Assembly (NCBI GenBank): GCA_030765065.1
Contig: CM060989.1
Coordinates: 33,285,501 to 33,349,500 of the forward strand
Direction: 5' to 3'
Length of the DNA stretch: 64,000 nucleotides
From: Deroplatys truncata
Taxonomy: Eukaryota > Arthropoda > Insecta > Mantodea > Mantidae
Shown: in pieces, positions 18,116 through 63,918 of the stretch
Layout: each line of letters begins with the position of its first letter
Position numbering within the stretch: position 1 is the stretch's first letter
The notes under the pieces: model-generated
Told to the model about the DNA's origin: nothing
The model's input: the letters and a program-made list of their open reading frames with translations, nothing else
Database searches by the model: none
Translations under genes and position numbers: made by a program

Positions 18116-18141
18116 TAGACATAATTGTTTTCTTGAGAATA

Positions 18142-19377
18142 CAGTGATTTATGAAGAACTGACACATTTATTTCTTTAATTGTTTCAAAACGAGTTATGC
18201 TAGCGACAACTTATTGTACCTCAAATACAGAGGAATTTTGGGAGATTATTTACCTCTATAGCAAACGTTGAAAATGTCCTCCATCCTGCATAACGCACAA
18301 CTCAACACGTCGTTCCATGTTACTGGCCACTCGTTGGAGAACTCTGTTGTCAATAGCTTGAATCCCCTGTGTAATGTTGTGCTTCAGATCGTCCAATGTC
18401 TGGAGACGTGTGGCATAAACCCTGTCTTTTAAATAACCCCTTAGAAAGAAGACCGGCGATGTCAAATCCGGAGATCTCGGTGGCCACAGGTTCTTGAAAA
18501 TTATCCGGTCGTCAAAGAAACTTGCAGTTACTGCCATGTATTCATTTGATGTATAGCATGTAGCGCCGTCCTGCTGAAAATATTCTTGACTCAGCTCTAC
18601 ATCATCTAGTTGCTCAGCTGAAAATCCGTCGGTACTCTGCAGTGTTCACATTGTTTAAAAAAAAATTGGTCTCACTATTCTGTGCGCGGATATTGCGCAC
18701 CAAACTCCGATTTTAACCTGGTGCATAGGTGCTTCATGAATAATATGTGGATTTTCGCTGGCCCAAAAGCGTGAGTTACTTGAGTTCACATAGCCGGATA
18801 AATGGAACCATGTGATGGACAACCGTAATCTATACGGCTTTAGGCCTGCACTTTTCACAGCTCTCTGACACATTGAGTAGCTGAACCCTGTCTCCTGCAA
18901 CAAACTCTTCATGATTTTTTTGGGTGACTGATACAGTTGTGCTCTTACGTCAACAACAACTATGGGAAGCCTAGATGAACGAGTTTTGGCTTTTTCACTC
19001 GCCAGGGATCCAGTTGTTTCCAATTTGTTTACCAGTCCCAGTATTTTGTTTCTTTTGGGAGGATTCCGTACACCAAATTCTCTCTGGTATGTCCTTTGAG
19101 CAGCTGTAATTGAATTTCTAATCCAGTATTGCTTTACAAGGAAGAGTCGTTCATTTAATGTGTACTCAATTTTCACGTTGACTAGAACAAAATCTGAAAA
19201 ACAGTTGCAGACAATAAAACTAACAATTACGAATAAAACATAAACGTCTGCGCATCTAGTGACAGACAATCGAAACTACAGAACATTCTGCTTAATTTGG
19301 TGCTAAAATTGGGCCATTGAGTGAATTTCGAACAGAATAATTAAAGAAAGAAACGTGTCAGTTCATAAATAATCCTG
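18142..19377 (-). mobile_element. DUF4817-type Tc1/mariner element (1236 bp)
   Basis: TA duplications at 18140-18141 and 19378-19379 flank termini starting CAG. Inverted repeats of about 35-40 bp share GAACTGACAC and TTTCTTTAATT. The inside encodes a transposase on the minus strand. The sequence is distinct from the 3.8 and 12 kb elements, but the protein family is the same. Confidence 0.85.
18256..19269 (-). pseudogene. DUF4817-type transposase, internally deleted, catalytic Asp lost
   Basis: The N-terminal DUF4817/helix-turn-helix part is present (YTLNERLFLVKQYW, NKLETTGS). After GLKPYRLRLS it jumps to WFHLSGYVNSSNSRFWASEN, so the segment with the first catalytic Asp appears deleted. GVWCAISAHRIVRPIFF is followed by a stop or frameshift, then YFQQDGATCYTSN (second Asp kept) and SPDLTSPVFFLRGYLK, where the third catalytic Asp (in CDF in the related 12 kb copy) is replaced by Val. 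It ends GGHFQRLL. Two of three catalytic residues are missing. Confidence 0.85.
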
Positions 19378-19379
19378 TA

Positions 19380-24060: not shown

Positions 24061-25259
24061 CGAGGGCTGACCTAACAAAGAAATCACAAAAATTTTGAGA
24101 AAAAACATCTTTATTTCTCTACATAGTATCCTTTCAGCTCGATACACCTTTCCCAGCGATGTTCAGTAACTTCCATACCCTGTTTATAGTGGGAACCGTC
24201 GAGTTCTGCAAAATAACCATCAACTGCAAACTCCACCTCTTCATTGCTGGCAAATCTCGTACCATCAAGCCATTTCTTCAACTTTGGAAACAGAAAATAA
24301 TCAGAGGGGGCTAAGTCTGGCGAATAGGGTGCATGAGGAAGCAATTCGAACTTTAACTCATTGAATTTGACCATGGCGATAATGGCTGTGTGAACTGGTG
24401 CATTGTATGGATGAAACAGAACTTTCTTTTTCGCTAAATGCGGCCGTTTTTGCTTGATTTCATCATTCAAATGCTGCAATAACTTTGTATAATACTCGCC
24501 ATTGATTGCTTTTCCTTTTTGAAAATAATCAATGAAAATTATTCCACACACATTCCACAAAACCGACGCCATGACCTTGCCTGCAGATGGAACTGTCTTC
24601 GCCTTCTTTGGAGCCGATTCTCCCCTTTCAATCCACTGTTTTGGCTATCTCAGGTGTGAAGTGATGGACCCAAGTTTCATCCATGTTTATGAATCGAGGC
24701 AAAAACTCGGCTTTATTGCAGCGAAACATCGCCAAACACTCGACTGAAACATCCTCATGACGCTGCTTTTGTTCCATTGTGAGTAAACGCAGCACCCATC
24801 ATGCGCACAGCTTTCTCATGTCTAAATTTTCAGTTAGTATGCGATGTACAGCACTTTTTGAAATGCCTGCGATGTCAGCTAGCTCGCACACTTTCAGTCG
24901 ACGGTCATCCAATACCATTTTGTGGCTTTTCTTCACAATTTCTGGCGTGGTCAGCTCATTTGGTCGACCACTGCGTTGTTCGTCTTGGCAGCTCGTACGG
25001 CCTCATTTAAACTCTGCCACCCAATATTTTACTGTTGTAAACGAAGGAGCAGACTCCCCCAGAGTAGAATCTAGCGCAGCTTTAATATTAGTTGGACTAA
25101 GACCTTTCAAATGAAAGTATTGTATCACATAACGACGGCCAGTTTTATCCCTGTTTACAAATTCGCTGAGAGAGTTCACTATTGATGGCTGCCAAACAAT
25201 TACTAAACAATGTAGCATCGTCAAGGTAGTCAGGTCAGCTACTTCTGGGACTGCTCTCG
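24061..25259 (-). mobile_element. Mariner element MLE-2 (same family as MLE-1)
   Basis: TA at 24059-24060 and 25260-25261. The termini start CGAGGGCTG and end CTCTCG. The left TIR lacks about 20 bp relative to MLE-1 (GTCCCAGAAGTACC missing). Inside is a decayed mariner transposase on the minus strand. Confidence 0.9.
24111..25224 (-). pseudogene. Mariner transposase, broken
   Basis: The first 73 codons (25003-25224) match MLE-1's start and end at a TGA where a CGA would continue. Mid-protein pieces are readable around 24790-25000. An 8-bp deletion near the first catalytic Asp region (after HHFTPEI) shifts the frame. The last 153 codons (24111-24572) are open and keep the final catalytic block SPDLAPSDYFLFPKLKKWL and the C terminus. 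In the second block FHPYNAPVH has replaced the HQDNAP motif, so that catalytic Asp is lost. Confidence 0.85.
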
Positions 25260-40127: not shown

Positions 40128-40245
40128 GTTGCCATGATAGCTTAGTCGGTTAGAACAACGGCACGGAAAGCCTAAGATCCGTGGTTCAAATCCCGGCTAT
40201 GGCATTGAATTTTTCAGTCTGATTCTACCTTTCCAAATGACTATA
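40128..40245 (+). repeat. SINE-b, second copy
   Basis: ATAGCTTAGTCGGTTAGAAC (A box) and GGTTCAAATCC (B box), then GGCATTGAATTTTTCAGTC and TGATTCTACCTTTCCAAA as at 279-400. It is preceded by about 50 bp of A/T-rich simple sequence (AAATAAAATAAAA). Confidence 0.75.
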
Positions 40246-46205: not shown

Positions 46206-46513
46206 GTTATCTTATTTGCTGAGCGCCTGTTATTGTTTTATTAAGTTTTTAAAAGTTGGGTTCTTTGTCCTCCGGCTAGCTATTATTACTCGGTCGAGCA
46301 AATATCTCTAAGCAGGGCGTGTAAACGGAAAGGAGTTGTTACTAAAAGATAACACTGATAAAAGTATTTATTTTCACGCTTTTATTGCCGTCACACTTAA
46401 TTAATTTCACATCTTTAATCTTGATACACGCCTAACTGAAACTGTTATATTTCCGAATGTAATTACTGTCGTAGTAGTTGTCGCGTACCTACTTCACATT
46501 TTATAACTAACTT

Positions 46514-46613
46514 TACGACGCGAGAAATTCTGTAGAACTGCGTAATGTGTACCTCGCGAGAGATTCTGTAGAACTGCGCGACGTTTACCTCGTGAATGAT
46601 TCTGTACAACTGC
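46514..46613 (-). repeat. Three tandem 35-bp repeats in LTR-b
   Basis: On the minus strand CGCAGTT(G/C)TACAGAAT followed by (C)TC(G)CGAGGT occurs three times, about 35 bp apart, giving a repeated peptide QFYRISREV in one frame. The 62 kb LTR lacks this triplication. Confidence 0.75.
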
Positions 46614-46620
46614 GCGATAC

Positions 46621-48437
46621 TTTTTTTTTCGAGTGGAGGAGAAAATGATTTAATCACTTACCTCAGCCCCGATGGGAGTCGGGACTGAGAGTGTGGGACT
46701 CACCAATAGTCGGCATACCCACTAAAAACTCCTCCACCGGAATGGAAAATAAGGAAGAAGGAAGAAAGAGGAATTCGGAGTGATAATGCGGCCGTACCGC
46801 TGTTGCACCGGCGTATTCAGGGTAGGGATATATTGGCCGGCCACTAGAGCCTAAGCCAGGTGAAGGTGAAGCGCCAGGACGCAAGCATGACCGAGGCCCT
46901 ACTTGCGCCCTTGGGAATTTGGAGTGAAGTGTGAAAGGAAGTCAGGAGCGAATGTGTGGCAGCAGTTCCCAGGTTGCTGCCGTGGAAAGTGAAGTGTGGT
47001 GTTCAATAGTGTCTAGCCTGCCTGGCGCGGCCACTGGGTGTCGCGCTCGGCCAGTCCGTTGGAGTAGGAGTAGTCTTTGGCTGATGAACCTTCCTGAGTC
47101 CATCCTTTACTGTACGTTCCATTGAGACGCGGATTCCGGCGATGAGTCCATGGAGCTCCGCACTGAGAAATGAGTATTGCTGCGTAATGCAGTTTTTGGT
47201 TTCGGTCTGGAGCTCTCGAAGCCCTGCAACTGAAGCCTCAAGGGCTCGGTCGTCGCGTGGCTCGGTCGTCGCTTCCAACTTCGGCGTCATCTGGTTCGAC
47301 GAGATGGCCCTCGATGCGAGCCAGCGTGCGCTGGACCGATGCGAGGATCCCGTCATCCCCCTGGAGTTCTGAGATCTGTCTTGAAAATGTGAAGATCGCC
47401 CTGGCCGAGGTCCGCTGCTTGGCCTCCACTGCCGCTAGGCGTGTGATGGTTGCACAGCGTAACTCAGCCAGGCGAGCGGTGAGGTCTTGGAGAGTAGCCT
47501 GCATTGCAGACAGCGAATCTTGTAGTTCTGGATGAGTTGGTTGTGATGTTCCCCTTACAAGGGGCGTCGTCGGCGGAGGATGTTGGTTGGTCGTCGGCGG
47601 AGGCGGTCTTGTGGTCGTCTTCAGCATAGCTGACCCAGCTGGTGGCTTGCTCCGGGGGTACAGGGGGCACTGAGCCTGCCCCGTGCAGTGCTGTGCCCCG
47701 AGCAAGTGGCGCAGCACTTGCGACGTCGGCGGAGGTCGTGGGCGGTGCAGTTTGCCGTAAGACAACCTGCTCCGCAGTAGTGGCACCGAGGTGCGGCGTT
47801 GCATGCCTGCGCTGTGTGACCGTAGCCACAACAGCGGCGGCAGGGTACCGGACGTTCACTCCTGCTTGCCTCGACACGCAAACACTGCCCCAGAAGAGGC
47901 AGGCTTGATCGCAAGGTCGCCTGAGCGTCCGAGGTGGGACCCAGATGGAGGCGTACCAGCGGTGTTGGCCCTCTGGGAGAGGTTATCCGGGAGGCCCGAA
48001 TAGCAGAGCGCCAGTGGTGCCTTGCAGCATCCAGCACGAAGTGCACTGGAAGATCCCTCGGCACTCCACAGATGACAACACTGGCGGCCAACTGACGCCT
48101 GCGGCGACAGTGGACTCACCAATGGCGGTAAGCCGGCGGCAGTCGGTGGCGTTGTACAGCCCTGTGTAGGAGAAACAGGGCTGGTGGCAACCTGTGGTGC
48201 AGCAATGCGACCGGGTGAAGCAGCAGCCGAAGCGTAGCTGGGCCCGGTCAGCGGTGGCGGCGAGGCGGCTTTCCCGGCGGATGCCAGTGAAGCTGCCGTC
48301 GAGACGGCGGAGTCCACGGCCGGAGCCGGGGAAGCAGCGGTGGAATCCTCAACGGCACGACGTTTTCACCTCTTCCCCATTTCGGAGATCTCGGCGAAGC
48401 GTAGTGATGTTGCCTCTGTGGAGTCTCGAAGCGAAGT
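46621..48437 (-). mobile_element. LINE with ORF1 but no ORF2 (1817 bp)
   Basis: Bounded by GCGATAC on both sides (46614-46620 and 48438-48444), with a poly-A tail on the minus strand (T9 at 46621-46629). From its 5' end it holds a gag-like ORF1 and then a 3' UTR of about 380 bp ending CATCGGGGCTGAGG and TTTCTCCTCCACTCG. No reverse transcriptase is present. It is GC-rich, unlike the surroundings. Confidence 0.75.
47003..48370 (-). pseudogene. LINE ORF1 (gag-like, zinc knuckles), frameshifted
   Basis: The minus-strand frames overlap in the order 47856-48317, 47621-48091, 47238-47831, 47003-47356. They give a Pro/Ala-rich N terminus, an RRM-like or linker region (VVICGVPRDLPV, ITSPRGPTPLVRLHL), and zinc knuckles CRRCCGYGHTAQAC (intact C-X2-C-X4-H-X4-C) and CHYCGAGCLTANC, where a His seems replaced by Cys. 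The protein then has a coiled-coil-like C-terminal part (AAVEAKQR..., LRELQTETKN). This layout fits ORF1 of Jockey/R1-type LINEs, which binds RNA. At least three frameshifts make it a pseudogene. In the native element this ORF would be followed by ORF2; here a 3' UTR follows directly. Confidence 0.75.
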
Positions 48438-48444
48438 GCGATAC

Positions 48445-48600
48445 TTTTTTTTTTTTTTTCTTTTTTATTTAAATGTTGTGGCCCCTCCTCCGCCACACCA
48501 GGTGACGATCATCCGAAAGGGATCTACATCGCCTCCCCTACCATGCACTAACTACAGCTAATGGATGGGAGAGGGAGTGGTGCTAGTGGTGCCAGGTACC
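48445..48600 (-). mobile_element. 3' end of a second LINE
   Basis: On the minus strand, CCTGGTGTGGCGGAGGAGGG then GCCACAACATTTAAATAAAA and a poly-A tract (T15 at 48445-48459 on the plus strand). This is a short 5'-truncated LINE 3' UTR lying between LTR-b and the ORF1-bearing LINE. Its upstream limit is uncertain. Confidence 0.55.
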
Positions 48601-49109
48601 GCTTACTTGCTTTTGGCTCAAGAATTTATACTCCCTCACCCCGATATGCCTAAACATTATAATAGAGCTGCTATTGGTTACTAAATCGCGGCAACATTAG
48701 CGTCTATTTTGTCAGCCAATCATAACTACAAACACATATGCTCTAGGGAAGATATTCCCTCCATTTCTAAAGAAAGGCACGCTACCCTGACGTCATTTGT
48801 TTGTCTCTTCTAAGTGATAAACAACTCACCCCATCGCTTCATTGTTACCCACTCTTATTGTCAGTTTCGGTGAGGCCGTGTAAACTTATTTCCTAACAAT
48901 GCTTGTGGCTAACAAACATCTACAATCATTGTCATACAATAATGTTACTTTATACTACAATCACTCTGGCATTCACAGTGTTGTGATATAAAATACTGCC
49001 TCAATCTTAATTCTAGGTTTTCAATTAATATGTAAGCAACTGTCATTGCTTGCCCTTTTGAAACATTATAAAACATGCAGAAACATGGAGGTAATATATA
49101 TAAAACTAG

Positions 49110-50045: not shown

Positions 50046-51636
50046 TGTGTGTCTGTGAACAGCATAACTCAAAAACGAATAATCGGATAAACACCAAACT
50101 TGGTATTTAGGTTCAGTATCTTCCAGAGATGCGACACGAAGGTTTTCAAGAAAATCCCCCCACTCCAGACTACCCTTTACATGGAACATTTTTCGAAAAT
50201 TTTAATTTTCTCAAAAATGGCTCTAACGATTTTGATTAAAATATCATATGTTTAAGATAATGGCATGAGAAATGAAATGTATATCTCGAATTTTCTGGGA
50301 ATGTCTCCAAAAGTATTCTTCATTGTGAACGCCTTTTGCATAACTGGTAAACCATAAGAGATAGACAAAATTTTACTACACGAAAAATGTAGATCGCGTT
50401 AAAATACACAATTTATGTCATATACATTTCTTTTGTTGAGTGAACCGTTTTCGAGATATTGCTTGTTATTTCCTTAAATTTTCCAATACTTATACTTTTT
50501 CTCAAATACGTTATTCATTTTTTACTTTCTCTACTACGTATAGTAAGTAGGGGAAGTATTGCATTCCACCCAAAAATTCGATACCGAGATTTCGCCGGAA
50601 ATACATGTTTTGAGACCTCCTGAATCCAAAAAAAGCATTTTTGGAAACATGTCCGTGTGTGTGTCTGTGTGTGTGTGTGTGTGTCTGTGTGTGTGTGTGT
50701 GTGTCTGTGTGTCTGTGAACAGCATAACTCAAAAAAGAACAGGCGGATAAGCACCAAACTTGGTATTTAGGTTCAGTATCTTCCAGAGATGCAACACGAA
50801 GGTTTTCAAGAAAATCCCCCCACCCCAGACTACCCTTTACATGGAAGATTTTTCGAAAATTTTAATTTTCTCAAAAATGGCTCTAACGATTTTGATGAAA
50901 ATATCATATGTTTAACATAATGTCATGAGAAAGGTAATGTATATCTCGAATTTTCTGGGAATGACTCCAAAAGTATTCTTCATTGTGAACGACTTTTGCA
51001 TAACTGGTAAACCATAAGAGATAGACAAAATTTTACTACACAAATAACGTAGATCGCGTTAAAATACACAACTTATGTCATATACATTTCTTTTGTTGAG
51101 TGAACCGTTTTCGAGATATTGCTTGTTATTTCCTTAAATTTTCCAATACTTATACTTTTTCTCAAATGCGTTATTCATTTGTTTTATGTCCTGGACATGC
51201 AAAGAGAATGGAATGCGCCACATAGCAACCAGCGTTAAAATATTTGACTATCGCTTAAAAGCTACCATATTTCCCTTGCATCTACAAGAAAAGTACCAAT
51301 AAGATTGACATCTCGATATCTCGATTAACATGAAGCATATGGAGAATAGGCGTTTGTAAAATTAGATTGTACAAGAGTAGAGAAAGTCATGTGAGTGTAA
51401 CACATCAGATTTTTTATATCCTGACATGCAAAGAGAATGGAACGCGCCACATAGCAACCAGCGTTAAAATATTTGATTATCGCTTAAAAGCTACCATATT
51501 CCCCTTGCATAGAAAATTACCAATAAGATTGACATCTCGATATCTCGATTAACATGAAGCATATGGGGAATAGGCGTTTGTAAAATTAGATTGTACAAGA
51601 GTAGAGAAAGTCATGTGAGTGTAACACATCAGATTT
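49866..51636 (-). repeat. R1 copy, reverse, split by a same-strand R1
   Basis: The left part 49866-50519 stops at GTTATTCATTTTTT. The right part 51413-51636 resumes at TATATCCTGACATGCAAAGA and ends AACACATCAGA. Between them sits a full R1 in the same orientation, at the T run that other copies show as CATTTTTTTATGTCCTGG. (GT)n at 50000-50050. Confidence 0.88.
50520..51412 (-). repeat. R1 copy, reverse, complete, nested
   Basis: ACTTTCTCTACTACGTATAG to GTGAGTGTAACACATCAGA, complete by landmarks, with an interrupted (GT)n/(CTGT) tract at 50655-50718. Confidence 0.92.
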
Positions 51637-52518
51637 TTTACTTTCTCTACTACGTATAGTAAGTAGGGGAAGTATTGTATTCCACCCAAAAATTCGATAC
51701 CGAGATTTCACCGGAAATACATGTTTTGAGACCTCCTGAATCCAAAAAAAGCATTTTTGGAAACATGTCCGTGTGTGTGTCTGTGTATGTGTGTGTGTGT
51801 GTGTGTGTGTGTCTGTGTGTGTGTCTGTGAGCAGCATAACTCAAAAAGGAACAGTCGGATAAACACCAAACTTGGTATTTAGGTTCAGTATCTTCCAGAG
51901 ATGCGACACGAAGGTTTTCAAGAAAATCCCCCTACCCCAGACTACCCTTTACATGGAACATTTTTCGAAAATTTTAATTTTCTCAAAAATGGCTCTAACG
52001 ATTTTGATTAAAATATCATATGTTTAAGATAATGTCATGAGAAATGAAATTTATATCTCGAATTTTCTGGGAATGTCTCCAAAAGTATTCTTCATTGTGA
52101 ACGACTTTTGCATAACTGGTAAACCATAAGAGATAGACAAAATTTTACTACACAAAAAATGTAGATCTCGTTAAAATACACAACTTATGTCATATACATT
52201 TCTTTTGTTGAGTGAACCTTTTAGAGATATTGCTTGTTATTCCCTTAAATTTTCCAATACTTATACTTTTTCTCAAATTCGTTATTCATTTTTTTATGTC
52301 CTGGACTTGCAAAGAGAATGGAATGCGCCGCATAGCAACCAGCGCTAAAATATTTGACTATCGCTTAAAAGCTACCATATTCCTCTCGCATCTACAAGAA
52401 AATTACCAATAAGATTGACATCTCGATTTCTCGATTAACATGAAGCATTCGGAGAAAAGGCGTTTGTAAAAATAGATTGTACAAGAGTAGAGAAAGTCAT
52501 GTGAGTGTAACACATCAG
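51637..52518 (-). repeat. R1 copy, reverse, complete
   Basis: Complete by landmarks; (GT)n tract 51774-51828. Followed without a gap by a partial copy. Confidence 0.92.
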
Positions 52519-52753
52519 ATTTTTTTATGTCCTGGACATGCAAAGAGAATGGAATGCGCCACATAGCAACCAGCGTTAAAATATTTGACTATCGCTTAAA
52601 AGCTACCATAATCCCCTTGCATCTACAAGAAAATTACCAATAAGATTGACATCTCGATATCTCGATTAACATGAAGCATATGGAGAATAGGCGTTTGTAA
52701 AAATAGATTGTACAAGAGTAGAGAAAGTCATGTGAGTGTAACACATCAGATTT
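52519..52753 (-). repeat. R1 partial copy (5' quarter), reverse
   Basis: Starts at TTATGTCCTGGACATGCAAA and runs to AACACATCAGA, repeating the last 235 bp of the preceding copy with few differences. It starts at the same T run that splits the 49866-51636 copy. Confidence 0.88.
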
Positions 52754-53610
52754 TTACTTTCTCTACTACGTATAGTAAGTAGGGGGAAGTATTGTATTCC
52801 ATCCAAAATTTCGATACCGAGATTTCACCGGAAATACATGTTTTGAGACTCACTGAATCCAAAAAAAGCATTTTTGGAAACATGTCCGTGTGTGTGTCTG
52901 TCTGTGTGTCTGTGAACAGCATAACTCAAAAACGAACAGTCGGATAAACACCAAACTTGGTATTTAGGTTCAGTATCTTTTAGAGATGCGACACGAAGGT
53001 TTTCAAGAAAATCCCCCCACCCCAGACTACCCTTTACATGGAACATTTTTCGAAAATTTTAATTTTCTCAAAAATGGCTCTAACGATTTTGATTAAAATA
53101 TCATATGTTTAAGATATTGTCATGACAAATAAAATGTATATCTCGAATTTTCTGGGAATGTCTCCAAAAGTATTCTTCATTATGAACGACTTTTTCATAA
53201 CTGGTAAACCATAAGAGATAGACAATATTTTACTACACGAAAAATGTAGATCGCGTTAAAATACACAATTTATGTCATATACATTTCTTTTGTTGAGTGA
53301 ACCGTTTGCGAGATATTGCTTGTTATTCCCTTAAATTTTCCAATACGTATACTTTTTCTCAAATTCGTTATTAATTTTTTTATGTCCTGGACATGCAAAG
53401 AGAATGGAATGCGCCACATAGCAACCAGCGTTAAAATATTTGACTATCGCTTAAAACCTACCATATTCCCCTTGCATCTACAAGAAAATTAGCAATAAGA
53501 TTAACATCTCGATATCTCGATTAACATGAAGCATATGGAGAATAAGCGTTTGTAAAAATAGTTTGTACAAGAGTAGAGAAAGTCATGTGAGTGTAACACA
53601 TCAGATTTTT
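52754..53610 (-). repeat. R1 copy, reverse, complete
   Basis: ACTTTCTCTACTACGTATAG to GTGAGTGTAACACATCAGA. Short GT tract (GTGTGTGTCTGTCTGTG). Last member of the array. Confidence 0.92.
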
Positions 53611-53716: not shown

Positions 53717-54250
53717 GGAAAAAGGTCTGTGCAGCGTAACTCAAAAACGAAAATTTGATTGAATACTCCTGTTCCTCCAATCCGAGCGACAAGGCGGAGG
53801 GACACATTTTGTGCGTTGTTTACATGACGTTTTAGGGTCAACCACCATAGGTAGTACTTATATATGCTTAGCTACAGACATTTGGTTCAGATTTGCAGAT
53901 CTATTATGTTAAGCCTACGGCTCCAAAACGTGGCAGTATTGGAATGTGATTGCAAACAAGTATTCAAATACCCCAGTTCATTCTTAAAGTATAATGTGGA
54001 GAACAAGCCCTACTCAAGGAGATCCATAGCCAAGCAGGCTCATGTTATGACGTAACAGGGAATCACGCCACCGTCATCTGAAAACTGGATTCTGCATTTC
54101 CAGACTATTTTAAAATGTGGATAGCCTCGAAATATTGCGATGTCTTACTCGTAACCTTTTTAAGTCGTTTTATTTCTCGGAAAAAGAAAAACCTATATTA
54201 AGCTGGTTTGTTTTATTTCTGTATATAGGTACTGGTACATCCAGTCACTG
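53717..54250. other. No recognised gene
   Basis: GCGTAACTCAAAAACGAAAA at 53734 is R1-like over a few tens of bases. The remainder is unassigned. A 63-codon frame at 53864-54055 has no motif. Confidence 0.45.
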
Positions 54251-54253
54251 ATA

Positions 54254-55383
54254 CGAGAGCTGTCCCAGAAGTACCCGACCTAACAAAGAAAACACAAACA
54301 TTTTGGAGAAAAAAAACGTCTTCATTTCTCTACATAGTCTCCTTTCAGCTCGATACACTTTTCCCAGCGATGTTCAATAGCTTTGATACCCTGCTTATAG
54401 TGAGAACCGTCGAGATCTGCAAAATAGTCATCAACTGCAGACTCCAGCTCTTCACTGTTGGCAAATCTTTTAGCACCAAGCCATTTCTTCAACTTTGCAA
54501 ACGGAAAATAATCAGAGGGGGCTAAATCTGGCGAATAGGAAGCAATTCGAACTTTAACTCATTGATTTTGGCCATGGTGATAATGCATATGAGAACTGGT
54601 GCATTGTCTTGATGAAACAGAACTTTCTTTTTCAGTAAATGCGGCCGTTTTTGCTTGATTTCATCATTCAAACGCTGCAATAAGTTTGAATAATACTCGC
54701 CATTGATTGTTTTTCCTTTTTGAAGATAATCAATGGAAACTATCCCACGCGCATCCCAAAAAACTGACGCCATGACCTTGCCTACAGATGGAACTGTCTT
54801 CGCCTTCTTTGGAGCCAATTCTCTCCTTTCAATCCACAGTTTTGACTGTTCCTTCGTATCAGGTGTGAAGTGATCGACCATGGTTAGGAATCGACGCAAA
54901 AACTCTGCTTTATTGCAGTGAAACATCGGCAAACACTCGACTGAAACATCCTCACGACGCTGTTTTTGTTCCATTGTGAGTAAACGCGGTACCCATCTTG
55001 CGCAAAGCTTTCTCATGTCTAAATTTTCAGTTAGTGTGCGATCTACAGCATTTTCTAAAATGCGTACTATGTCTGCTAGCTCGCGCACTTTCAGTCGACG
55101 GTCATCCAATACCATTTTGTGGATTTTCTTCACAATTTCTGGCGTGGTCACCTCATTTAGTCGACCACTGCAATGTTCGTCTTGGCAGCTCGTACGGCCT
55201 CGCTTAAACTCTGCCACCCAATATTTTACTGTTGTAAACGAAGGAGCAGACTCCCCCAGAGTAGAATCTAGCTCAGCTTTAATATTAGGTGGACTAAGAC
55301 CTTTCAAATGAAAGTATTGTATCACACAACGATCACCAGTTTTATCCATGTTTACAAATTCGCTGAGAGTTCACCATTAATGG
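54254..55383 (-). mobile_element. Mariner element MLE-3, 5'-truncated
   Basis: TA at 54252-54253, then CGAGAGCTGTCCCAGAAGTA, the family TIR. The other end, including the TIR and first 20 or so codons, is missing; homology to MLE-1 and MLE-2 stops near TTCACCATTAATGGC. Confidence 0.88.
54320..55349 (-). pseudogene. Mariner transposase, longest open copy, catalytic block deleted
   Basis: A 275-codon frame (54522-55349) covers the helix-turn-helix region and most of the catalytic domain. The segment around the first catalytic Asp is shortened: FLTMV is followed directly by DHFTPD, an apparent 4-codon in-frame loss relative to MLE-1. FHQDNAPV keeps the second Asp. A 10-bp deletion after FELLP shifts the frame just before the third catalytic block, whose remnant continues in another frame (KKWLGAKRF, HRWEKCIEL) to about 54320. 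It keeps Gln where MLE-1 has its first stop. Confidence 0.88.
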
Positions 55384-55404
55384 CGTATTGCATAAAGTCA
55401 AAAC

Positions 55405-60417: not shown

Positions 60418-60924
60418 TGATACAGTAATTTGTATCACAAATTAATTAAATGTAAAGAATGATTATAGTATGAATATTGTAGCGGACCAGGAAGAGCTTT
60501 GAGAATTGCACATATTTCGTATACCAGGAAGTGTGAAATTCAGGTTAAGCAGAAAGCGTCCACGCTGCACAAAGCCGAGTCAGCGCTTATGTAGGTATTT
60601 ATAATACAGGGTTTTGACTCGGTGGGGAGAGTGTGAGTTGCCTCGTGGTTGTTGCCAAGAGGTTGTTGTTGCTACGAGAGAGTCGTCAGATTAGGTATCA
60701 GTTTCGAGACCCGTCGCCACCAGTCAACAGGTAAGCATGCGACTCATCTAAGTTCTCTTGACTTGTCGGGGCTTCACCAGATAACCTCAGGTAAAAGGTT
60801 ATCCCAAAATGAGGCGTGTTTTACACCTTGCAAAAAGAAAAGAGAAAAAAAATTGATTACATCCCCTGGCTGGAAGAGGTAAGGATGTTTTCCCCAATTA
60901 TATCCGGAGACTCCGTCACATTGT

Positions 60925-60992
60925 AGTCGGTGCCTACTACATGTACCCGGCGCTCCGCCACATTGTACCCGGCGCCTCCACCAAATTGTAAC
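60925..60992. repeat. Short GC-rich tandem repeats in the element centre
   Basis: CACATTGTAGTCGGTGCC, TACATGTACCCGGCGCTCCG, CACATTGTACCCGGCGCC and CAAATTGTAAC are related units of about 20 bp. Confidence 0.7.
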
Positions 60993-61193
60993 ACCCCACG
61001 AGGGTGGTTACCCCCGCAGTAGGTGATTACACAGGGGGGTTGGTAGCTCAGAGGTAGGGGATGCGTTGGTACCGGGGTGGTAGGCAGGCCAGGGTGGCGT
61101 TCTAGGATAGGGGGTATTTAAATAAAGCACAGGGGATGCATTGGCCCACTAAATTATACTTGTAGCTTTAAGTATGCGTACATTCAGTTCGGG

Positions 61194-61290
61194 GTGAAGC
61201 CCCGACAAGTCAATAGAACTTAGGGGTGAAGCCCCGACAAGTCAATAGGACTTAGGGGTGAAGCCCCGACAAGTCAAGAGAACTTAGATG
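61194..61290. repeat. Three tandem 32-33-bp repeats at the inner edge of the right arm
   Basis: GGGGTGAAGCCCCGACAAGT followed by CAATAGAACTTA-type sequence occurs three times. The innermost unit of the inverted arm has been triplicated on this side only. Each unit contains the palindrome GGGG..(TGAAG)..CCCC. Confidence 0.9.
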
Positions 61291-62328
61291 AGTCGCATGC
61301 TTACCTGTTGACTGGTGGCGACGGGTCTCGAAACTGATACCTAATCTGACGACTCTCTCGTAGCAACAACAACCTCTTGGCAACAACCACGAGGCAACTC
61401 ACACTCTCCCGACCGAGTCAAAACCCTGTAGTATAAATACCTACATAAGCGCTGACTCGGCTTTGTGCAGCGTGGACGCTTTCTGCTTAACCTGAATTTC
61501 ACACTTCCTGGTATACGAAATATGTGCAATTCTCAAAGCTCTTCCTGGTCCGCTACAATATGCATTTTTGTGTGACATTGAGTTGAGATGTTTGTTGATT
61601 GTAATTATTGTTGAGAAGTAAGTTTATACTGCCTTACTGAAACTGACAATAATAGCGTGCAATAATGCAGCGAGGGGGTGAGCTGTTTATCATTATTAGA
61701 GACGAGGAAGTTACGTAATGTTGGCCCGTTTTTCTGTAGAAATTGCTGGAACATTATACCTAGAGCATATGTATTCATAATTTTCATTGGATATAAAAAC
61801 AGACGCTAATGTTGGCGCGTTTTATTAGCCAATAGTAACTCAGTTATAATCTTTAGGCATATCGGGGTGTAGGCGTATAAAAAGTGCTAGGTTAGTGATA
61901 GACCCCGTCAGTTCACCGAAAATATTTGTATGCTACACGTCGCCTTCAGTCCAGCAGAAATATTACACGTCGGCTATCGGTTCGCAAGTTATCAGAGTTA
62001 TGAAAAATCTCAAGTTTTGTAAAGTTAATGATACAAAAAGTTGAAGTACGTGAATTAAGAATGATCAGTAAATAAGTTATTATAACAGTTTCAGTTTGGC
62101 GAGTGTCAAGATCAATGTGTAAATGTGATAGTGAAAGTGTTCGACAATAAAAGTATAAAAGAAATTCTTTCATCAGTGTTATCTTTGGATAAGAGACTCC
62201 CTTCCGTTTACACAACCTGTATAAAGAGAAGTGCTTGACCAAAAGATCATAGCTAGCCGGAGGACAGTGAACAAAAATTAAATAAAATAACAGTAGCATT
62301 CTTTCAAACGAAAACTAATACTGCCGCA

Positions 62329-62899: not shown

Positions 62900-63918
62900 A
62901 TGTACCTTAGGAGCGGTAGGATAAAGAAAACAATGGCTACTAATAATACAGAAGAAATAATTATGGAGGGAGATAGTGTAACAGTTAGCTGTAATTCAAT
63001 AAAGGTTACAGAAAATAGCTCAAACAATGTAGTATTTGAGGGAGGAAATGTTAGTGCAGAAAGTGAGAATAGAATAGCAGGAAATGTTAATATTGATGCT
63101 AGTATGATGATGGAAATGATGGAAATGCTGAGAAATTTTGGTGAGAGATTAGAAAAGAAATTAGATCAAATGAGTGAAGCTATAAAAAAAGATCATAGGA
63201 AATGGAGGGAAAGTATTGGTATGAGGAATGAGATATTAGAGCAAAAAGTAGATCAAAGCAATGAAGAAATTGAAAAGAAAGTTATGAAGCTAGATAGTAG
63301 TATGCCAAAAATGAGAGATGAAAATGAGGAAGTAATAGCAAGTGAAATTGGAGAAGTTTCAAAGGAAATGTCAGATATGAGCAGGGAAATAAGTAACAAA
63401 AAAGTGAGGTTAATACTAAAAGTGAACATGGTGATGCAAAATGTACAGAGTCAGGTAGTAGAATGAGTAACATTTCAAGTGAGATAAGAGAGATGAAAGA
63501 GGTTATGAATGTAGATGTGAATCAGGCGCAAGTTAATTTCAGAGGGGAGATAATACAGAAGGAGTCAGTAATACAAAGAAATAAATTGTTTGAAGAAGTT
63601 AAAGTTTTGCCTGTAAATAATCAAAAGCTAACTTCTGAAATTAACAAGTACCAAGCTGTTCAGAATGAAAACTCCAATCCAGTACAGTTTATGACAGATT
63701 TGTCAGAGTACTCTCAAATTAAAGAGATAGTAGAAGAATTGAAAATGACAGTTGTTAAAAGATGTGTTGTTCAGGAAACTTTAGATTGTTTTCAAATGTT
63801 ATCAGGGGACGAAATATCATATGAATCCTTTAAAAGGCGATTCATGAACAAATTTTGGAAGGTTAGGATACGGCTACGAGTAATGTTTAGCTACAGACAA
63901 TTTGATCCAAGAGGGTAA
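62900..63918 (+). pseudogene. gag-like protein of the LTR retrotransposon, frameshifted
   Basis: The ATG at 62900 opens MYLRSGR, a start I have seen in insect Ty3/mdg4-like gag proteins. Residues about 65-175 are Glu/Lys/Met-rich and predicted coiled coil by eye (EMLRNFGERLEKKLDQMSEA). Frame 1 stops at 63466; a frame one base back is open from 63397 and continues (SEIREMKE..., DEISYESFKRRFMNKFW, RQFDPRG) to a stop at 63918. The shift maps to the A6 run at 63398-63403. The ESFKRRF..KFW...F segment resembles the retrotransposon gag core. There is no zinc knuckle, protease or pol before the window ends. More frameshifts are likely near the end. Confidence 0.7.

Follow-up and report, generated by a model that had tools for sequence, protein, structure and literature searches.

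A 1080-bp insertion with long inverted arms in an LTR-like repeat of Deroplatys truncata, a candidate non-autonomous DNA transposon with Ginger2-like features

What kind of mobile DNA is the 1080-bp element at positions 60478-61557 of a 64,000-nucleotide stretch of the Deroplatys truncata genome (assembly GCA_030765065.1, contig CM060989.1, 33,285,501 to 33,349,500; the whole of this stretch is called the window below), and which enzyme could have moved it? The element consists of two inverted arms flanking a 478-bp core. We see an even chance that it is a non-autonomous derivative of a longer cut-and-paste DNA transposon which lost its internal part, with a Ginger2-type integrase-like transposase as its likeliest mover. 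We hold with moderate confidence that the element works like a member of Ginger2, but we do not file it as one. The family is probably new, though its kind is known.

The left arm (60478-60778, plus strand) is 301 bp long and starts with TGTAGCGG. The right arm (61257-61557, minus strand) has the same length and ends with GCTACA on the plus strand. Self-comparison of the window matched the two arms at 299 of 301 positions (99.3%) with a spacing of 478 bp. They differ at 60604 (A/C) and 60624 (G/C) in left-arm coordinates, and the computed result agrees with the preliminary description, which had given 301-bp arms with two differences by eye. A repeat finder extended this pair to 309 bp at 99%, since the flanking ATAT and, past one mismatch, three further bases share the inverted symmetry. 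An inverted match of 301 bp and of such quality is, we infer, far beyond chance.

The core (60779-61256, plus strand) contains a weak 23-bp tandem repeat at 60917-60990. The longest stop-free stretch in the whole element is 86 codons, and there is no long open frame. The element is discrete and without a recognisable gene, in agreement with the first description, which saw no coding domain. Where the right arm meets the core there are three 32-bp tandem units (61191-61286, minus strand), of which the third (61255-61286) is almost wholly part of the arm. The unit occurs once in the left arm and three times at the right side, and therefore the element is not symmetrical over its whole length. 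Near 61041 the core has what looked by eye like a tRNA-like box, but neither Rfam nor ARAGORN supported it. The one Rfam match to the element scored 17.4 bits (E 4.5), where the gathering score is 60, and was taken as chance.

Inverted arms that are long and nearly perfect can mislead an assembly, and the element could on that account be a product of assembly folding or a cloning palindrome. We regard such an artefact as extremely improbable. The inner ends of the arms differ, with one 32-bp unit against three, and beyond TGTAGC the inverted symmetry extends for just eight bases. The flanks give a further argument. A related LTR-like repeat without the element is found at 48625-49004 on the minus strand, and it was used for an empty-site comparison. 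When the two flanks were joined with one ATAT removed, BLAST aligned them to the minus strand from 49004 downwards with 287 of 383 columns identical (75%) and with 5 gap columns, none of which was at the joint. The right flank alone matched 48944-48625 at 76% over 320 columns and also 46449-46260 at 77% over 196 columns, the paralogue being interrupted. With the left flank by itself, BLAST gave no match to the paralogue. Aligned directly, 100 bp of the left flank scored 58.0 against the left side of the paralogue. Neither 500 shuffles (best 49.0) nor 2526 further 100-bp pieces taken from the window (best 47.5) scored as high. Since both flanks come from a single repeat and, once rejoined, match a related site, the element is a genuine insertion within an LTR-like repeat and not an assembly fold. 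The paralogous LTR near 48.9 kb, which had been proposed earlier as the empty site, is confirmed in that role.

We also varied the number of bases removed at the joint. The scores were 124.5 with none removed, 133.5 with four, 139.0 with five and 136.0 with eight. Removal of four bases did not give the top score, yet it requires no gap at the joint; five and eight score higher because the paralogue has diverged there.

The LTR-like repeat around the element has TATAAAA near 61876 and AATAAA near 62146, and it lies upstream of an ORF at 62900 which is gag-like by eye. These features make its earlier naming as an old LTR a reasonable one. The two gag-like ORFs that follow the repeat (62900-63918) gave no Pfam family above cut-off, and none of 23 candidates scored in a protein search with the first of them. 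Inside the paralogous repeat, the stretch 46450-48640 is GC-rich (0.58 over 46500-48620) with overlapping ORFs, and by eye it resembles part of a non-LTR element.

The ends of the element, TGTAGC...GCTACA, have ATAT on each side, at 60474-60477 and at 61558-61561, as the two copies of a presumed target duplication. ATAT is its own reverse complement, the inverted symmetry also crosses it, and as a palindrome it leaves the boundary ambiguous by one base. With the boundary shifted by +1, the element becomes TTGTAGC...GCTACAA (1082 bp) flanked by TA, and the left ATAT is then read as an A, the TA duplication and the first T of the element. The ends and the ATAT copies given in the preliminary description are therefore present, but the 4-bp duplication read from them fits a TA duplication equally well when the boundary is set one base out.

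The surroundings of both ends were scanned for exact direct repeats of 2-12 bp at shifts of -8 to +11, and for repeats of 5-10 bp with at most one mismatch at shifts of -4 to +7. Over shifts -8 to +11 no exact direct repeat exceeded 2 bp except ATAT at shift 0, which corresponds to TGTAGC. Direct repeats of 2 bp were also found at shifts -7, -6, -4, +2 and +6, and repeats of 6 bp with one mismatch at shifts -1 (AATATT/AATATG) and +2 (ATGAAT/ATGCAT). Shifts 0 and +1 give an identical empty site, so the paralogue cannot separate the 4-bp reading from the TA reading. The practical lesson is that a palindromic target leaves the boundary, and hence the superfamily, undecided from a single copy.

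The window contains 998 cases in which perfect inverted ends of 12 bp have a direct repeat of 2-9 bp beside them. Among those listed, most were palindromic words that sit within larger inverted repeats, so a duplication of this sort is weak evidence on its own. With TGT ends and a 4-bp repeat, the element was the only case among the matches listed. In 20 plain shuffles there was no case with TGT ends, and 4 of the 20 gave one 4-bp case with other ends.

With its boundary one base further out, the element could be a deletion derivative of a long-armed Tc1/mariner-type element, TTGTAGC...GCTACAA (1082 bp) with a TA duplication. We consider this origin possible, though somewhat unlikely. The shift gives TA on both sides and the same predicted empty site, and relics of mariner-type transposases are present in the window. 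The TA reading needs two chance base matches to mimic ATAT, while the 4-bp reading needs a chance palindromic target, and by our estimate the two would roughly cancel. TTGTAGC is not known as a Tc1/mariner end. Five mariner-like stretches of the window were examined for inverted ends. Two of them have clear ones, beginning with TACGAGGG and TACAG, which are unlike the ends of the element; the other three have matches of 11-14 bp or none. Like Bari2 and Bari3, Tc1-like elements with inverted repeats of about 250 bp in the excerpted text of PMC4877112, the element has long inverted repeats. Unlike the Bari elements, which carry three 18-bp direct repeats according to the same excerpts (PMC4877112), it showed no such set in its arm in an ungapped search. 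The longest direct repeat in the arm was 9 bp (ACCAGGAAG), and 7 of 60 shuffles had one at least as long. The 4-bp reading is preferred because the ends fit TGTNR and Tc1-style binding repeats are lacking, and these two points would tip the balance.

Given the 4-bp boundary, the element resembles Ginger2/Tdd elements in several respects. As far as the excerpts of PMC2836005 go, Ginger2 has TGTNR ends and duplications of 4 bp, or of 5 bp in TDD-4 and TDD-5, and the inverted repeats in its Table 2 are 45-297 bp long, with 260 and 297 bp for TDD-4 and TDD-5. The element has the TGTNR end TGTAGC, inverted at the other end, its 301-bp inverted repeats are just above the listed range, and its duplication could be one of 4 bp with A and T only, the palindromic ATAT fitting TA equally. 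Two differences stand against these likenesses. The 6-bp target is AATATG and not the preferred RTATAY, which the same excerpts present as a preference and not as a rule (PMC2836005), and no transposase is seen. The earlier suggestion of a Ginger-like transposon agrees with the TGTNR ends and the long inverted repeats, and with the duplication if it is read as one of 4 bp; the target, the missing transposase and the possible TA reading weigh against it.

A short non-autonomous family of Ginger2, Ginger2-1N1_NV of 252 bp, is described in the excerpts of PMC2836005, where the arthropod mention of Ginger2 is the pea aphid. Ginger2 is also mentioned in a crayfish repeat table. The Ginger2-like transposases of sesarmid crab nimaviruses are reported to insert into (AT/TA)n and to have introns, in the portion of PMC10871703 that deals with them. 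Ginger1 is like the element in TGTNR ends and, on the 4-bp reading, in its duplication. Its target is CCGG or CCGT/ACGG in the excerpts of PMC2836005, and membership of Ginger1 was excluded by this GC-rich target against the ATAT found here.

The proposed history starts with a longer parent element, from which internal deletion would have produced a gene-less derivative. A transposase supplied from elsewhere would bind the arms and cut at TGT/ACA, and the ends would be joined to target DNA with a 4-bp stagger, the repair of which would leave ATAT on both sides. The likeliest mover would be an integrase-type transposase of the Ginger2 kind, an enzyme with an H2C2 zinc finger and a DDE integrase-like domain, which would be encoded by the element or by an autonomous partner. 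No integrase-type transposase was found among the 9 window ORFs given to Pfam, out of 40 listed, and the element was seen in the window in one copy; both points count against this history.

The arms contain motifs that could belong to the expression of such a parent. A TATA-like word, TATTTATA, is found at 60596-60603 on the plus strand and at 61432-61439 on the minus strand, and a splice-donor-like word, CAG/GTAAG, at 60728-60735 on the plus strand and at 61300-61307 on the minus strand, all four as motifs only. In both arms CAG/GTAAG follows 132 bases after the start of TATTTATA, and both words point inward. Earlier, the arms had been thought able to drive outward or inward transcription; the motifs are indeed in both arms and face inward, but none faces outward. 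A presumed ATG-free leader exon of 105 nt would extend over 60626-60730 on the plus strand, if transcription started about 30 nt past the TATA-like box. A TATA-like word followed on the same strand by a donor-like word 80-200 nt on occurred twice in total over the two strands of the window, and both cases were the arms. This pattern was chosen after inspection of the arms and is therefore not a clean test. The only AATAAA on either strand of the element is at 61121-61126 (plus strand), where it resembles a poly(A) signal.

From these motifs the element would appear to retain the beginning and the end of a transcription unit and to have lost what lay between, with the left arm first and the right arm last. 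In the parent, the left arm would have supplied the promoter, the leader and the first splice donor, transcripts would have ended at the AATAAA on the core side of the right arm, and the transposase gene between the left arm and AATAAA would have been lost. If this is true, arms with promoter and donor would show how a gene-less derivative retains the expression module of its parent.

A different use of the same motifs can be imagined. The element may belong to an undescribed long-armed lineage whose arms are both full expression cassettes facing inward, each with promoter, leader and splice donor, but we think this very unlikely. If it were so, converging transcripts would form double-stranded RNA, which could silence the autonomous relatives of the element itself.

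The TATA-like box, the TG...CA outer ends and the 4-bp duplication would also suit an LTR, and the element had been explained alternatively as an LTR-derived inverted duplication, in which two head-to-head LTR pieces moved as one unit. The evidence disfavours this origin, and we judge it highly improbable. AATAAA is absent from both arms, the inner edge of the arm is ...CTTCACC and not the CA of a complete LTR, and by eye neither a primer-binding site nor a polypurine tract was seen beside the arms. The arm had only short matches elsewhere in the window and no other full copy among the matches listed.

Returning to the reading as a deletion derivative moved by a Ginger2-type enzyme, the age of the insertion can be bounded loosely. 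Two differences in 301 sites correspond to a 95% Poisson range of 0.08-2.4%. The description of the element as young is therefore only loosely bounded. Arm identity can also persist by way of the source copy or by conversion. The accompanying statement that every other repeat was visibly decayed went too far, as other pairs in the window reach at least 96.9% over 894 bp among the best 80 listed. The two extra 32-bp units differ from the unit of the arm by one and two bases in 32. This hints that the triplication predates the divergence of the arms and may have arrived with the source copy, three changes being too few for certainty. The CpG observed/expected ratio was 0.76 for the element and 0.84 for the window. 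As an independent clock, CpG depletion was uninformative, with 478 of 675 sliding windows outside the element at or above the element's value.

The arms may instead belong to a long-armed transposon whose superfamily is a different one or has yet to be described; its ends would be TGT...ACA and its duplication short and AT-rich. We rate this as unlikely. No relative was found in the collections that were searched, which suits such an origin; these collections cover viruses, prokaryotes, phages and plasmids, among which no relative would be expected. Exact arm words had no match in the prokaryotic contigs (genome_contigs). A 20-base arm end found one locus in the viral contigs (viral_contigs), a phage (L001) with a 21-base match, and otherwise short matches; with 21 bases only, the phage locus was taken as chance and not as a relative. 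Two further exact arm words had no match in the same viral contigs, and a sensitive DNA search of phages and plasmids with the whole element gave none.

Among known superfamilies, Mutator-like elements usually have a target duplication of 8-10 bp. Unlike them, the element has no duplication of that size at its site, either exact (shifts -8 to +11) or with at most one mismatch (shifts -4 to +7). The excerpts consulted give 4-10 bp for the duplications of MuDR and relatives (PMC10045372) and say of Mutator-like elements that their long inverted repeats hold promoters (PMC3310237). For IS481EU of parabasalids, the excerpts of PMC10045372 give TGT...ACA ends, stated for the Histomonas families, and duplications of 4, about 15 or 24 bp. 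Polinton, with a 6-bp duplication in the same excerpts (PMC10045372), was rejected; the element has no exact counterpart, and 6-bp repeats with one mismatch are present at shifts -1 and +2. The repeat at shift +2 predicts an empty site 6 bases shorter than that of the 4-bp reading, and a gap against the paralogue would therefore be needed.

If further copies confirm the 4-bp duplication, and if a partner with an integrase-type transposase exists, the element would stand for an additional non-autonomous Ginger2-like family, possibly a recent one. Beyond this Ginger2-like possibility, the element is ordinary mobile DNA.

The window contains other repeats and genes. A mariner relic at 1253-2539 starts with TACGAGGG and has 33-bp inverted ends (91%), and the relics at 24069-25224 and 54250-55384 are related to it at 88-90% identity. 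The mariner ORF at 54522-55370 matched 1336 of 1824 candidates in a protein search, and the organisms named among the best 120 of these 1336 include ants, bees, flies, moths and a scorpion, a range that ties the window only loosely to arthropods. In the viral contigs a mariner ORF had three pattern matches, none of which was confirmed. The relic at 18140-19379 has an ORF with a DUF4817 helix-turn-helix and 45-bp inverted ends (82%), starting with TACAG. A second Rfam tRNA match at 40131-40204 was not called by ARAGORN, and a tRNA-Ser (GGA) gene at 279-353 was called by both programs. Tandem duplications of 224 and 231 bp are located at 51182-51640 and 52288-52755. A repeat of about 890 bp is dispersed over 21500-57400 in both orientations, with many pairs at about 80-97% identity among the best 80 listed, and some of its copies have (GT)n stretches.
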